This document shows positions 28,741 to 49,489 of a stretch of 64,000 bases of DNA, in pieces. This DNA is from Candidatus Nitrosymbiomonas proteolyticus. GTDB lineage: Bacteria; Armatimonadota; Fimbriimonadia; Fimbriimonadales; Fimbriimonadaceae. Each line of letters begins with the position of its first letter. Within the stretch, counting starts at the first letter, position 1. A model generated the notes under the pieces. It was not told the DNA's origin, made no database searches, and worked only from the letters and a program-made list of their open reading frames with translations. Location of the stretch: contig AP021858.1 in the NCBI GenBank assembly GCA_017347465.1, positions 2,684,472 to 2,748,471 on the forward strand, given 5' to 3'. The position numbers were made by a program, and so were the translations under genes.

Positions 28741-29313
28741 CAGGCTCCCCGGGGCCGGCCCCTCATCCCCTTGGTCCCCTTCTCCCCCAGAGGGGCGAAG
28801 GGGAAGTCTTGTGCCGCGGCGGCAGGCGGAGAAGTGGGTTCGAGTCCGGGGCTGCTCCGGGGGTCACGCGCGGGTTCCCCGGGGCCGGCCCCTCATCCCC
28901 TTGGTCCCCTTCTCCCCCAGAGGGGCGAAGGGGAAGTCTTGTGCCGCGGCAACAGGCGGAGAAGTGGGTTCGATCCCGGGGCTGCTCTGGGGGTCAGGCG
29001 CGGGCTCCCCGGGACTGGCCCCTCATCCCCTTGGTCCCCTTCTCCCCCAGAGGGGCGAAGGGGAAGTCTTGTGTCGCGGCGGCAGGCGGAGAAGTGGGTT
29101 CGATCCCGGGGCTGCTCTGGAGGTCAGACACGAGTTCCCGGGACCGGCCCCTCATCCCCTTGGTCCCCTTCTCGGGGAAGTCTTGTGCCGCGGCAACAGG
29201 CGGAGAAGTGGGTTCGATCCCGGGGCTGCTCTGGGGGTCAGGCGCGGGCTCCCCGGGACCGGCCCCTCATCCCCTTGGTCCCCTTCTCCCCCAGAGGGGC
29301 GAAGGGGAGACCT
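28741..29313. repeat. 130-bp tandem array of REP-like hairpin elements (five copies)
   Basis: Five copies of a motif CCTCATCCCCTTGGTCCCCT plus hairpin start at 28761, 28891, 29021, 29150 and 29265, giving periods of 130, 130, 129 and 115. Each full copy ends in an imperfect hairpin, CCCCTTC-T-CCCC / CAGA / GGGG-C-GAAGGGG; copy four lost its right half. The spacers between hairpins are also repeated (CTTGTGCCGCGG, GGCGGAGAAGTGGGTTCGA). Long open frames run through the array only because the unit is GC-rich. The related element recurs inside ubiD at 46.7 kb. Confidence 0.85.
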
Positions 29314-45472: not shown

Positions 45473-45491
45473 TTGCGCTCTTCAGGTAGGT

Positions 45492-45524
45492 CCGGACAGG
45501 CGGATGGTCGTGCCGTTTGTCCGG
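45492..45524 (+). repeat. Structured hairpin repeat, copy 1
   Basis: Arms CCGGACA (45492-45498) and TGTCCGG (45518-45524) enclose GGCGGATGGTCGTGCCGTT. A second direct copy starts 66 bases on, and an inverted, covarying copy lies at 45701. No protein-coding gene is convincing in this 371-base gap. Confidence 0.7.
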
Positions 45525-45557
45525 GTGGTTCTGTAGTACGTTCCCCGACAGGGTGCC

Positions 45558-45590
45558 CCGGACAGGCGGATGGTCGTGCCGTTTGTCCGG
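45558..45590 (+). repeat. Structured hairpin repeat, copy 2
   Basis: Identical arms (CCGGACA 45558-45564, TGTCCGG 45584-45590) and identical loop to the copy at 45492. Confidence 0.7.
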
Positions 45591-45700
45591 GAGGATTAGG
45601 AAACCTCTCGTCCGAATCGCGTAAGAGACGTTCCGGGAAGAAGGAGGTCGGGAAGTCTGAACACGGGTTAAGCGCTAGGCCGGTCCCGGCATCAGACCTT

Positions 45701-45736
45701 CCCTGACAAACGGCACAATCCCTCCGCCTGTCAGGG
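45701..45736 (-). repeat. Structured hairpin repeat, inverted copy 3 with compensatory stem change
   Basis: On the minus strand it reads CCCTGACA, a loop beginning GGCGGAGGG and ending TGTGCCGTT, then TGTCAGGG. The stem differs from the other two copies by a G-C to T-A swap that keeps pairing, while the loop stays similar. This supports a conserved structure rather than chance. Confidence 0.65.
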
Positions 45737-45843
45737 CCACCCGCCGTGCAACCATTTTTTGTCGGCTTAATCCCCTTTTCCCAATCCCCGATAAAGTCTC
45801 GGTTGCACCTTAGGCAGAACCACTTCGTAGTACCCATTTGCGC

Positions 45844-46668
45844 TCACAACCCCAGCCTCGGCCAGAGGGCGTCTATGCGGGATTTGACCTCCGGCGACAT
45901 CTCGATCAGTTTGGGGAAGTCGCGGCTAAACCCGTTCTCGCCCGGCCACTTGTGCGTGCAGTCGAAGCCGATCTTGCCGCCGAAGCCTTCGGCCAGCGAC
46001 GCGTGGTCGAGCTGGTCCACCGGGCCGCGCGAGTGCAGCGCGTCGCGCCCGGGGTCGCAGTTCGCACCGAGACGGAACAACACCTGCGCCGTGTCCTGCA
46101 CGTCCACGTCCTCATCAAAGATAAAAACAAACTTAGTAAAGGCAAGACCGCCGAGCCCCCACACCGCGTTCATCACCTTGTACGCATGCCCCGGATACTT
46201 TTTGCGAATCGAGACGAACGCAACGTTGTGGAAGCACGCCTCGACCGGCAGGTGGATGTCCACGATCTCCGGCACGGTGAGGCGGATCATCGGCATGAAG
46301 ATGCGCTCGACCGCCTTGCCCATCCATCCGTCCTCCATCGGCGGCTGGCCGACGATCGTCGCGGGATAGATCGCTTTGTCCCGCATCGTGACGCACGTGC
46401 AGTGGAACACGGGGAACATGCCCGCGAGCGAGTAGTAGCCGGTGTGGTCGCCGAACGGGCCTTCGAGGCGTCTTTCGTTCGGGTCCACGTAGCCTTCGAG
46501 GATGATTTCCGCGTCGGCGGGGACCTTCATGTCGATCGTTTTGCATTGCACGAGCTCGGCGTTCTTTCTTCTTAAGAAGCCGGCGAAGGCCATTTCGTCG
46601 AGGCCCGGCGGGAGGGGGGAGATGGCGGCGAAGGTGTAGGCGGGGTCTCCGCCAAGCGCGACGGCCAC
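45844..46668 (-). CDS. ubiD: UbiD-family decarboxylase, C-terminal fragment (frame-broken gene)
   Basis: The C-terminal 274 residues of a UbiD/prenylated-FMN decarboxylase: VAVALGGDPAYTFAAISPLP, then AGFLRRKNAELVQCKTID and VPADAEIILEGYVDPNERRLEGPFGDHTGYYS with the conserved ExxxEGPFGDHxGYY stretch. The first usable start is GTG 46668, but the homology continues upstream in this frame (ARGVEIPPPGTLH), so this is the second half of the gene whose first half is at 46572-47798. One base missing from a C tract in the 111-bp repeat array separates the two frames. Confidence 0.8.
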   Translation of the reverse strand: MAVALGGDPAYTFAAISPLPPGLDEMAFAGFLRRKNAELVQCKTIDMKVPADAEIILEGYVDPNERRLEGPFGDHTGYYSLAGMFPVFHCTCVTMRDKAIYPATIVGQPPMEDGWMGKAVERIFMPMIRLTVPEIVDIHLPVEACFHNVAFVSIRKKYPGHAYKVMNAVWGLGGLAFTKFVFIFDEDVDVQDTAQVLFRLGANCDPGRDALHSRGPVDQLDHASLAEGFGGKIGFDCTHKWPGENGFSRDFPKLIEMSPEVKSRIDALWPRLGL

Positions 46669-47798
46669 ATGGAGGGTGCCGGGGGGAGGAATCTCGACTC
46701 CACGGGCTTTGCTCGGCTGGCGCCCCTCACCCCCTGGCCCCCTCTCCCCCGGAGGGGCGAGGGGGGATGGGGAATATCCAGTGCCCTGACCTGCAACCCC
46801 AGCATTCGAGCCTTCCGAACCCTTGCTTCCGAACCCCTCACCCCCTGGCCCCCTCTCCCCGGAGGGGCGAGGGGGGATGGGGAAGATCCAAAGCCCTGAC
46901 CTGCAACCCCAGCATTCGAGCCTTCCGAACCCTTGCTTCCGAGCCCCTCACCCCCTGGCCCCCTCTCCCCAGGAGGGGCGAGGGGGGATGGGGAAGATTC
47001 AAAGCCCTGACCTGCAACCCCAGCATTCGAGCCTTCCGAACCCTTGCTTCCGTGCCCCTCACCCCCTGGCCCCCTCTCCCCCGGAGGGGCGAGGGGGGAT
47101 GGGGAGGCTAATTCTTCCATGTGCCTCATGCCCGTCTTGTGCATTTGCCAGTGCATCCCGAGCGTGTTGCGATCGTAGAGCTGCATGCGGTACATGCCGA
47201 CGTTCCGCTTGCCTGTATTGGGGTCATAGGTAAACACGAGCGGCAGAGTGAGGAACGGCCCGCCGTCTTCCGGCCAACAAGTGAGGATCGGGAGCCGGGT
47301 GAGGTCCACCTCGTCGCCCTTCAGCACGATCTCTTGGCACGGACCGCGGCTGACCGTCTTCGGGATCGCAGTCTTGAGCTCCTTGAATGCCCGGATTGCC
47401 AACTGCAGGGCATCACCGGGAGATTTGGGAATTGGAGGAGGCAACAGCGCGGCGATCCGCTCGGTGTGCTCCTCGAAGTCAGCGACCCCCAGAGCCATGC
47501 TCATGCGCTTTCGCGAGCCCATCGTGTTGATCGCAACCGGGAAACCGAACCTCTGGCTCTGCCCCAGCGAAGCCTCCAAAGGCGGCTCGCCCATAACCGC
47601 GCTGCGGGGGTTCGACGTGCCAAGCCGATGAGGCGGTCCGGCGACATTCTCGAACAGAAGCGCCGGGCCGCCAGACTTCATAACTCGGTCCGCGATCTCC
47701 GTGATTTCAAGATAGGGCGAGACGGGTTCTGCGATCCGCTTCAGCTCGCCCGCTCTCTCAAGAGCGTCGAGAAACTCCCGAAAGTCGCGATAGGCCAT
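46572..47798 (-). CDS. ubiD: UbiD-family decarboxylase, N-terminal fragment running into minisatellite
   Basis: UbiD enzymes remove the carboxyl group of aromatic or unsaturated acids with prenylated FMN, as in quinone synthesis. MAYRDFREFLDALERAGELK (start ATG 47798), then LLFENVAGPPHRLGTSNPRS and GMYRMQLYDRNTLGMHWQMH (the prFMN region) are family hallmarks. After GMRHMEEL the frame enters the repeat array: two units read SPLAPPGERGPGGEG, then the frame slips at unit 46834 to SPLAPPGRGGQGVRG and ends off-frame. Activity depends on whether the slip is real and whether the inserted 37-residue units are tolerated. Confidence 0.8.
   Translation of the reverse strand: MAYRDFREFLDALERAGELKRIAEPVSPYLEITEIADRVMKSGGPALLFENVAGPPHRLGTSNPRSAVMGEPPLEASLGQSQRFGFPVAINTMGSRKRMSMALGVADFEEHTERIAALLPPPIPKSPGDALQLAIRAFKELKTAIPKTVSRGPCQEIVLKGDEVDLTRLPILTCWPEDGGPFLTLPLVFTYDPNTGKRNVGMYRMQLYDRNTLGMHWQMHKTGMRHMEELASPSPLAPPGERGPGGEGHGSKGSEGSNAGVAGQGFESSPSPLAPPGERGPGGEGLGSKGSEGSNAGVAGQGFGSSPSPLAPPGRGGQGVRGSEARVRKARMLGLQVRALDIPHPPSPLRGRGGQGVRGASRAKPVESRFLPPAPSMWPSRLAETPPTPSPPSPPSRRASTKWPSPAS
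46723..47100. repeat. 111-bp in-frame minisatellite inside ubiD, with REP-like hairpin
   Basis: Unit starts (CCCCTCACCCCCTGG) at 46723, 46834, 46944 and 47055: spacings 111, 110 and 111. 111 bases are 37 codons, so complete units keep the ubiD frame. Unit 46834 has four instead of five C in its tract, causing the frameshift; unit 46944 has four C plus A, keeping length. Each unit holds the hairpin CCCCCTC-T-CCCC / CGGA / GGGG-C-GAGGGGG. The spacer repeats CCTGACCTGCAACCCCAGCA and CCGAACCCTTGCTTCC. Confidence 0.9.
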
Positions 47799-47863: not shown

Positions 47864-49489
47864 TCACGAATCCTCATCAGCCGGCCTTCCCTCCAGCGTG
47901 AAAAAGAGGGTAGCTCCCCTACCCTCTTCACTCTCCGCCCACAGCCTTCCGCCGTGTCCTCCGATAATCCGTTCGCATATCGAAAGGCCTATACCGGTAC
48001 CCGCATATTCCCGATTGGAATGCAATCTCTCAAAGGGCCTAAGCGCCTTCTCAAAGAGCGTAGCGTCAAACCCTATTCCATTGTCTCGGATATAGAACAC
48101 GGTCTCACCCGATTCGACGAACGATCCGAGTTCAACTCGAGGGTCTTCGACCTGGGAGGAGTACTTGAGCGCGTTCGATAAGAGGTTTTCGAGGAGAATA
48201 TGAATCAAGTGCACATCAGCCTGGGCAAGCATCGAATCGGGGATCGAAACACGCGCTTTTGGATTGTGCCTCGCGGTAACCAATACCGAAAGCTGCCGCG
48301 CTACATCCGCCAAATCGACCGTCGTGCGCTCCAACCGAATCCGAGACACTTTTGAGAAATTGAGAAGGTCGGTGATCAGGGCGTCCATGCGGAGAATCGA
48401 GCTTTCGATGCCTTCGAGGGACTCCGCGATTTCCCCTTTGGCTGACGCACCCAACTCCTCCCTCAGAACCCCAGCGTGGAGCGAGATCGACCGCAAGGGG
48501 GAACGAAGATCGTGGGACACGGAGTACGAAAATGACTCCAGATTCGCGTTGGCGGATTCCAGTTCGCTCGTTCGGTCAGCGACGCGCCTTTCGAGTTCGG
48601 CGTTCAGCGATAGCAGCTCTTCCTGAGCGTCCAGACGAAGGCTCTCCGCCATCTCGAGGGCCTTGCCGATGCGCCCCGCGATGTGGGCGGTAGTCACCAC
48701 GATGACGCCCCCCGTTAGCGCCGAAGTGGCGGCGGCGAGCAGAACCGTGTTCGCTTCGTCCTCGCGCAAGAGTGCAAAGCAAATCACCGAGTACACGATG
48801 ATCGCCCCCACACCGATAGGGAGGAACGATCTCAGCAAAATGGCCCTCGGAGCGGGTCCCAAGAAATGTCGAAGAGGCCAGCTCTCTGGCCCTGCGGCAT
48901 AGATGGCGCCGACGGAGAGAGTCACAAACGATAGCGCCGTCGTTACGGCTACCGGAATGTGAGCCCCGCCGTACAGCAACGGCTGTCCAAACGCGTACCC
49001 GATGAGGACCAAGGAAGCGATGACCAGCGATCCCAGCGCAAGCGACGCCGCGAGCGTACGATCGGACCGATTGTGAATCGACGCAAAGAGGTTGAGGCTA
49101 ACCGAGCCCCCCAAGGCCACGAAGCAAAGCGCCGTGACGATTGACATTCGTCCGGTCAACACCTGCCCAAAGCGCTCGGGCTGAGAGACTAGCCAGCGCT
49201 CCAATACATCGACGCCGACCCCGTACCCGATCACTAGGAGCAGAAGACAATAGGCGACCACTAACGAGGACGCAAGGAGACCCAATACATTGAAAAACGT
49301 AGCACCTTTTCTGCGCACGAAAATAACACACAATGAAAGTACGACAAAGCAGATTGCCGTACTGGGAGCCATCGGAATGTACTCTGTACTCGTGCTCGCC
49401 AGCAGGTGCTCGCCGGTAACCCAGCCTACGATCGCAATTCCGCTGATCCCCAACGAAGCGAAAGCGAAGCCGTACCGAATCCAGTTCAT
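47864..49489 (-). CDS. Membrane sensor histidine kinase
   Basis: Two-component kinase. Residues 1-265 hold seven or eight membrane segments without a recognised ligand domain. A coiled coil (LNAELERRVADRTSELESAN) leads to the HisKA box FSYSVSHDLRSPLRSISLHAG (phospho-His about residue 330). The ATPase domain shows NLLSNALKYSSQ (N box), FYIRDNGIGFD (G1), ERLHSNREYAGTGIGLSICERII (F/G2). FSYSVSHDLR and the ending RGATLFFTL are typical of phytochrome-type kinases. No response regulator gene is adjacent. Confidence 0.88.
   Translation of the reverse strand: MNWIRYGFAFASLGISGIAIVGWVTGEHLLASTSTEYIPMAPSTAICFVVLSLCVIFVRRKGATFFNVLGLLASSLVVAYCLLLLVIGYGVGVDVLERWLVSQPERFGQVLTGRMSIVTALCFVALGGSVSLNLFASIHNRSDRTLAASLALGSLVIASLVLIGYAFGQPLLYGGAHIPVAVTTALSFVTLSVGAIYAAGPESWPLRHFLGPAPRAILLRSFLPIGVGAIIVYSVICFALLREDEANTVLLAAATSALTGGVIVVTTAHIAGRIGKALEMAESLRLDAQEELLSLNAELERRVADRTSELESANANLESFSYSVSHDLRSPLRSISLHAGVLREELGASAKGEIAESLEGIESSILRMDALITDLLNFSKVSRIRLERTTVDLADVARQLSVLVTARHNPKARVSIPDSMLAQADVHLIHILLENLLSNALKYSSQVEDPRVELGSFVESGETVFYIRDNGIGFDATLFEKALRPFERLHSNREYAGTGIGLSICERIIGGHGGRLWAESEEGRGATLFFTLEGRPADEDS

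Follow-up and report, generated by a model that had tools for sequence, protein, structure and literature searches.

The ubiD gene on the minus strand of the window (the whole stretch of 64,000 nucleotides that was analysed) is interrupted by a tandem array, beyond which the reading frame is displaced by one base. The locus raises the question of how the array came to lie inside the gene, and whether the frame break is a switch, a lesion, or a sequencing error. Insertion of a triplex-type palindrome, its tandem amplification, and the loss of one base probably explain the locus, and the insertion and amplification stand whether the break is a miscount, a switch, or a real lesion. For the break itself, a recent injury driven by the repeats or a miscount in sequencing is the most likely reading, ahead of an evolved on/off switch.

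The window belongs to the 2.81-Mb genome of an uncultured Armatimonadota bacterium, which is assembled in one contig, is 99% complete, and contains no ubiD other than the copy in the window. Because there is no second ubiD, the possibility that the interrupted gene is a plain pseudogene backed up by an intact copy, which the preliminary description had considered, is excluded. The nearest named relative is H1_ARM1 (CP054189.1, a MAG), which the group search places in the same species as the window, and which is listed by its authors as a member of Armatimonadota, family Fimbriimonadaceae (PMC7648391).

Anatomy of the array and the reading frame

The gene extends on the minus strand from an ATG at 47798 to a stop at 45844, and has the following parts in the order of the coding strand:

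47105-47798, minus strand: upstream half of ubiD, beginning with the ATG at 47798; UbiD_N and the first part of the UbiD domain according to Pfam and NCBIfam; in frame up to the array
47055-47104, minus strand: palindrome copy 4, the first on the coding strand, 50 bp; its upstream flank matches that of the single copy in H1_ARM1
46994-47054, minus strand: spacer, 61 bp, unmatched outside this array
46944-46993, minus strand: palindrome copy 3, 50 bp, CCCCA variant
46883-46943, minus strand: spacer, 61 bp
46834-46882, minus strand: palindrome copy 2, 49 bp, CCCC at 46857-46860; one tip-loop base short, the UbiD frame is lost here
46773-46833, minus strand: spacer, 61 bp
46723-46772, minus strand: palindrome copy 1, the last on the coding strand, 50 bp
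45844-46668, minus strand: downstream half of ubiD, which completes the UbiD domain and includes UbiD_C; its frame is open as far as the natural stop, one base off that of the upstream half

The array at 46722-47105 has a period of 111 with 95% matches (TRF), and is composed of four ~50-bp G/C palindromes and three 61-bp spacers, which amount to about 3.5 units. An exact 27-base core is located at 46723, 46834, 46944, and 47055, with spacings of 111, 110, and 111, as had been described for four units inside ubiD. The relaxed pattern has a chance expectation of 0.03 per 64 kb, and 0 of 100 shuffles gave four matches. The tracts at the tips of the palindromes are CCCCC in copies 1 and 4, CCCC in copy 2, and CCCCA in copy 3, which agrees with the earlier reading of a single short unit; the base missing from copy 2 falls in the tip loop of the palindrome. 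The differences between the units, compared by eye, mostly change the residue, and therefore the repeat peptide bears no sign of constraint. The search for the source of the spacer returned no match in 151 relatives and 113 genomes of the class, the array itself excepted. At genome position 301797 there is a weak match of 25 bp, which was judged to be due to chance.

The array separates residue ~231 from the strand beginning with VAVALGGDP. Because copy 2 is one C short, the upstream open reading frame crosses the array into the wrong frame and terminates at a stop at 46572. The downstream half is complete to its natural stop, in an open frame that is offset by one base. Pfam assigns the two parts as halves of one UbiD, with positions 2-88 of the domain in the upstream half and 97-206, followed by UbiD_C, in the downstream half. 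The open reading frames and the Pfam halves thus uphold the claim that the gene is off by exactly one base and that the downstream sequence is in the UbiD frame. The same division is seen with TIGR03701 (menaquinone biosynthesis decarboxylase): both halves match the model, with 236.7 and 351.1 bits in complementary parts, each below the curated cut-off of 495.9, and the array together with the frame break divides the window copy in two.

Relative to H1_ARM1, dN/dS is 0.11 in the upstream half, which shares 92% DNA identity with its counterpart, and 0.10 in the downstream half. Of the downstream changes, those attributable to the side of the window are conservative, and no further stops or frameshifts have accumulated downstream of the break. 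Relaxed selection downstream of the break was rejected on the basis of this dN/dS and the conservative changes. Since the downstream half still looks constrained, the break is very recent or reversible, affects some of the cells and not others, or is a miscount. The two options posed at the outset, a variable locus or a sequencing problem, were the correct ones.

The palindrome as a dispersed element

The palindrome has the sequence CCCCCTCGCCCC-TCCG-GGGGAGAGGGGG-CCA-GGGGGTGAGGGG on the coding strand, and its plan relates it to the G/C-rich intrastrand triplex motif (TM/PIT) known from the literature. In the general sense of Holder et al. (2015), the triplex motif consists of a C-rich/G-rich hairpin and a mirror G-rich third stem, with short loops and few mismatches. 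A scanner for 10-nt stems, allowing one hairpin and one mirror mismatch, detected this arrangement in all four copies, whereas windows shuffled locally gave about 0.2 hits each. The strict TM_ECO consensus, CCCTCNCCC N3-6 GGGNGAGGG N3 GGGNGAGGG, does not describe the ubiD palindromes: with 9-nt stems, the second loop has 7 nt, not 3, and the copies match the pattern only once this loop is relaxed. A relaxed pattern has 18 matches in this genome and occurs in 24 of 61 relatives, with 0 matches for a reversed-pattern control; these counts for whole genomes were obtained by searches with patterns and DNA.

The likeness to TM_ECO/PIT comprises the order of the parts (C-rich stem, short loop, G-rich stem, short loop, and mirrored second G-rich stem), a G/A mismatch as in many E. 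coli copies, dispersal in the genome, and instability nearby. The palindrome differs in that its stems have about 12 nt instead of 9, in that it forms direct tandem arrays with spacers, whereas the known motifs are single or in inverted pairs, and in its host, which belongs to Armatimonadota. It is also positioned in frame inside a coding sequence, whereas the E. coli copies were reported as always intergenic. Holder et al. counted the strict motif in proteobacterial genomes, linked it to local instability in E. coli, and described the loops as its less conserved parts (PMC4666352).

Rickettsia palindromic elements (RPEs) are longer than the palindrome described here. They resemble it as dispersed palindromes placed in frame in genes of conserved proteins at tolerant sites, but they are not triplex-type, the copy here is amplified in tandem, and the likeness considered is one of plan. 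REP/BIME sequences share with the palindrome the clustering of short dispersed palindromes with linkers and the presence of Y1 transposase genes in the genome, but the copies here have direct, not alternating, orientation. Intragenic tandem repeats with copy-number variation, such as those of E. coli tolA (PMC3477136), are similar in their within-species difference in copy number and in a unit length that is mostly divisible by three; the array in ubiD differs from them in that its unit is a dispersed palindrome with a spacer and in that one unit breaks the frame, two genomes being compared.

The element forms more direct tandem arrays with other spacers, both in this genome and in H1_ARM1. 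A paralogous gene pair of this genome (L020:1501-1570; L230, reverse strand) carries the palindrome at nearly the same site, in one gene, which has an HNH-type end, as a 42-bp insert in frame, and in the other gene out of frame; the homologue in H1_ARM1 (L228) has an empty site. A methyltransferase-like gene contains the palindrome in frame and at the same place in both genomes; this gene name and the HNH-type assignment were read from translations. Two of the four Y1_Tnp genes are located within 1.6 kb of palindrome clusters (L220 and L225, positions 205449 and 1190921 of the genome), a proximity with p of about 0.003 for a comparison chosen after the fact, and Y1-type transposases are possible mobilisers of the palindromes. 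The predicted hairpin energy is about -35 kcal/mol per copy, and the copies contain runs of C6 and G5. RNA folding was rejected as evidence of selection, as the energies, with z-scores of -1.0 to -1.5 on the coding strand, are not clearly beyond those of shuffles.

A second tandem array of this kind of palindrome in the window, at 28743-29308, has a period of ~130 and about 4.5 copies, of which the one near 29145-29180 is without its hairpin tip. The array is apparently intergenic, and H1_ARM1 differs there. Elsewhere, a uvrA-like fragment containing the zinc-finger region (L041:1480-1700) carries a palindrome and another repeat, and is, by eye, apparently a piece of a pseudogene.

Palindromic inserts recur in the ubiD genes of relatives. 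Triplex-type inserts in frame are present in other Fimbriimonadaceae at L108:2480-2524 (codon ~85), and at L109:2493-2536 and in L070 (codon ~80); the inserts of L108 and L109 lie in an N-terminal loop of UbiD, and the motif of L109 and L070 has no mismatch. Strong-hairpin inserts in frame occur in the ubiD genes of L042, L067, and L068, and that of the same-genus genome G001 (L072, minus strand) has three palindromic inserts in frame at three sites, all unlike that of the window. Enrichment of triplex motifs in ubiD relative to its flanks was rejected, because the counts of 3 in 98 kb and 4 in 320 kb are too small, and ubiD is therefore not claimed to be a special target. In the predicted structure of UbiD from H1_ARM1 (mean pLDDT of 87; closest solved relative E. 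coli UbiD), residues 236-255 have pLDDT values below 50 and are located between helix 222-231 and strand 265-271, and the insert is predicted to be disordered. The recurring in-frame palindromic inserts in ubiD suggest a route by which small repeats give rise to new disordered segments in bacterial enzymes.

Comparison with H1_ARM1

The ubiD gene of H1_ARM1 is intact and has 540 codons. At the site of the array it contains one palindrome, in frame and without a spacer (HMEELASPSPLAPPGERGPGGEGHQPSKARGVEIPPPGTLHVAVALGGDP), and this single in-frame insert is therefore likely to be the older state, the array and the frame break being seen in this genome only. The outer flanks of the array match those of the single palindrome, and thus the difference between the genomes is three extra units, of 332 bp instead of 333. 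Of the variation among strains that had been envisaged, in unit number and in tract length, the first is evident, with one palindrome versus four, and a second state of the tract length is not visible; the same-species comparison comprises one other genome, H1_ARM1, the identity of whose locus was checked. A change from one copy to four, rather than the reverse, is suggested by the absence of the array elsewhere, with one same-species genome compared.

The surroundings of ubiD are syntenic and mostly 96-99% identical between the two genomes, and the block of ubiD and a kinase gene at 45.9-49.6 kb is mostly ~90-95% identical. H1_ARM1 keeps a second ubiD 3' end downstream (L073:4310-4395), which may be a trace of allele replacement or insertion. 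Because of the divergence of the ubiD-kinase block and the second 3' end, the two genomes carry different ubiD alleles (~8% divergence), probably because one genome had its allele replaced, and the array could therefore have arrived with an allele from another strain. As both alleles hold the palindrome at the same place, its insertion appears to predate their divergence, unless the palindrome was passed from one allele to the other. A segment of 54 bp is identical in the alleles, which otherwise differ by 8%, and this odd identity may be due to homogenisation.

Proposed history and accounts of the frame break

The events at the locus probably began with a single in-frame palindrome, placed in a surface loop of a UbiD decarboxylase of the menaquinone type. 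This copy is present in both alleles and is probably old. The palindrome with a 61-bp spacer would then have given rise to the tandem array of four palindromes, which is the observed difference from H1_ARM1 if the change proceeded in this direction; the amplification is likely to have occurred by replication slippage or unequal recombination at the hairpin-forming repeats. The loss of one base from the tip loop of one palindrome, as present in the assembly, would break the frame, and if the break is real, no full-length UbiD is expected. The frame could return by slippage at the tip; recombination in which the 110-bp unit is lost might restore it more readily. Earlier work described triplex-type repeats as lying between genes in E. 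coli and as correlated with instability among strains. At this locus, a copy is in frame in a conserved metabolic gene, one copy contrasts with four in two same-species genomes, and the break is at one tip, which makes the proposed instability testable at a defined locus.

The product of ubiD looks like a core menaquinone decarboxylase, not that of a surface contingency gene. The intact UbiD of H1_ARM1 scores 588.6 bits on TIGR03701, above the cut-off. UbiD co-occurs with MqnA/D and UbiX in this genome, G001, and H1_ARM1, and the MqnA/D-type genes and the UbiX-like flavoprotein are present and open here. UbiD, PF02621, and the UbiX-like protein are jointly absent in G004, G033, and G028. Because of the co-occurrence with MqnA/D and UbiX, and because the H1_ARM1 copy passes TIGR03701, the loss of UbiD would be expected to cost menaquinone synthesis.

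For the break itself, we lean towards a real and recent lesion. A miscount in the assembly is a tentative but serious possibility, in which case every unit in the cell would have 111 bp and ubiD would be intact, encoding repeats of 37 residues, and the assembly would have lost one C in a G/C-rich hairpin that is difficult to sequence. A miscount would be in keeping with the constraint on both halves of a sole ubiD that is apparently needed for menaquinone, and with a deficit of one base in a homopolymer inside a strong hairpin. However, the tract has only 4-5 bases, and the ~50 kb compared with H1_ARM1 contain few small indels and, apart from the break in ubiD, yielded no frame break specific to the window; widespread assembly indels were rejected on this evidence.

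It is rather unlikely that a gene loss is under way, with ubiD now a pseudogene and menaquinone obtained otherwise or unneeded. Some relatives have lost UbiD along with MqnA/D and UbiX, and here the sole copy is frame-broken, but this genome retains MqnA/D and UbiX with open frames, and the downstream half shows no further decay.

The preliminary description had proposed a possible phase-variable decarboxylase controlled by a slippage-prone C tract, and this proposal found no support. In such a population, slippage of the tip tract, or changes in the number of 110- versus 111-bp units, would toggle UbiD, which we consider improbable. The homopolymers of usual phase-variable genes are far longer than 4-5 bases, and the tracts of 4-5 C do not amount to the long homopolymers or short-unit repeats of such genes. 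A single frame state is observed, with H1_ARM1 simply on and without the array, and the benefit of switching a core metabolic enzyme is not obvious. The displacement of the frame by exactly one base, the mixture of 110- and 111-bp units, the copy number of one versus four within the species, and the link of triplex-type motifs to instability in E. coli (PMC4666352) are nevertheless features that a switch would have. If there is any switch, the exchange of units is a more plausible mechanism than the C tract, because the loss of the 110-bp unit leaves a multiple of three. The broader proposal that the triplex-type palindromes of Fimbriimonadaceae are coding-compatible mobile elements that repeatedly enter genes in frame, and that the ubiD array, in which 110- and 111-bp units are mixed, is a reversible recombination switch for menaquinone synthesis, is highly improbable.

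We give hardly any credence to a working enzyme produced by ribosomal or transcriptional slippage on the C6 and G5 runs, or by a restart at the GTG of VAVALGGDP: the strong hairpins and a GTG-start open reading frame of 274 aa would suit it, but the hairpin energies are within the expectation from composition, a ribosome-binding site is not seen just before this GTG, and H1_ARM1 has no such arrangement.

Several copies of another short inverted repeat, of the CCGGACAGGCGGATGGTCGTGCCGTTTGTCCGG type, are located right after ubiD at 45480-45740, and copies of this type also accompany palindromes elsewhere in the genome. The histidine kinase gene that adjoins ubiD is intact in the window (47864-49489) and frame-broken in H1_ARM1 (L073:941-2134).
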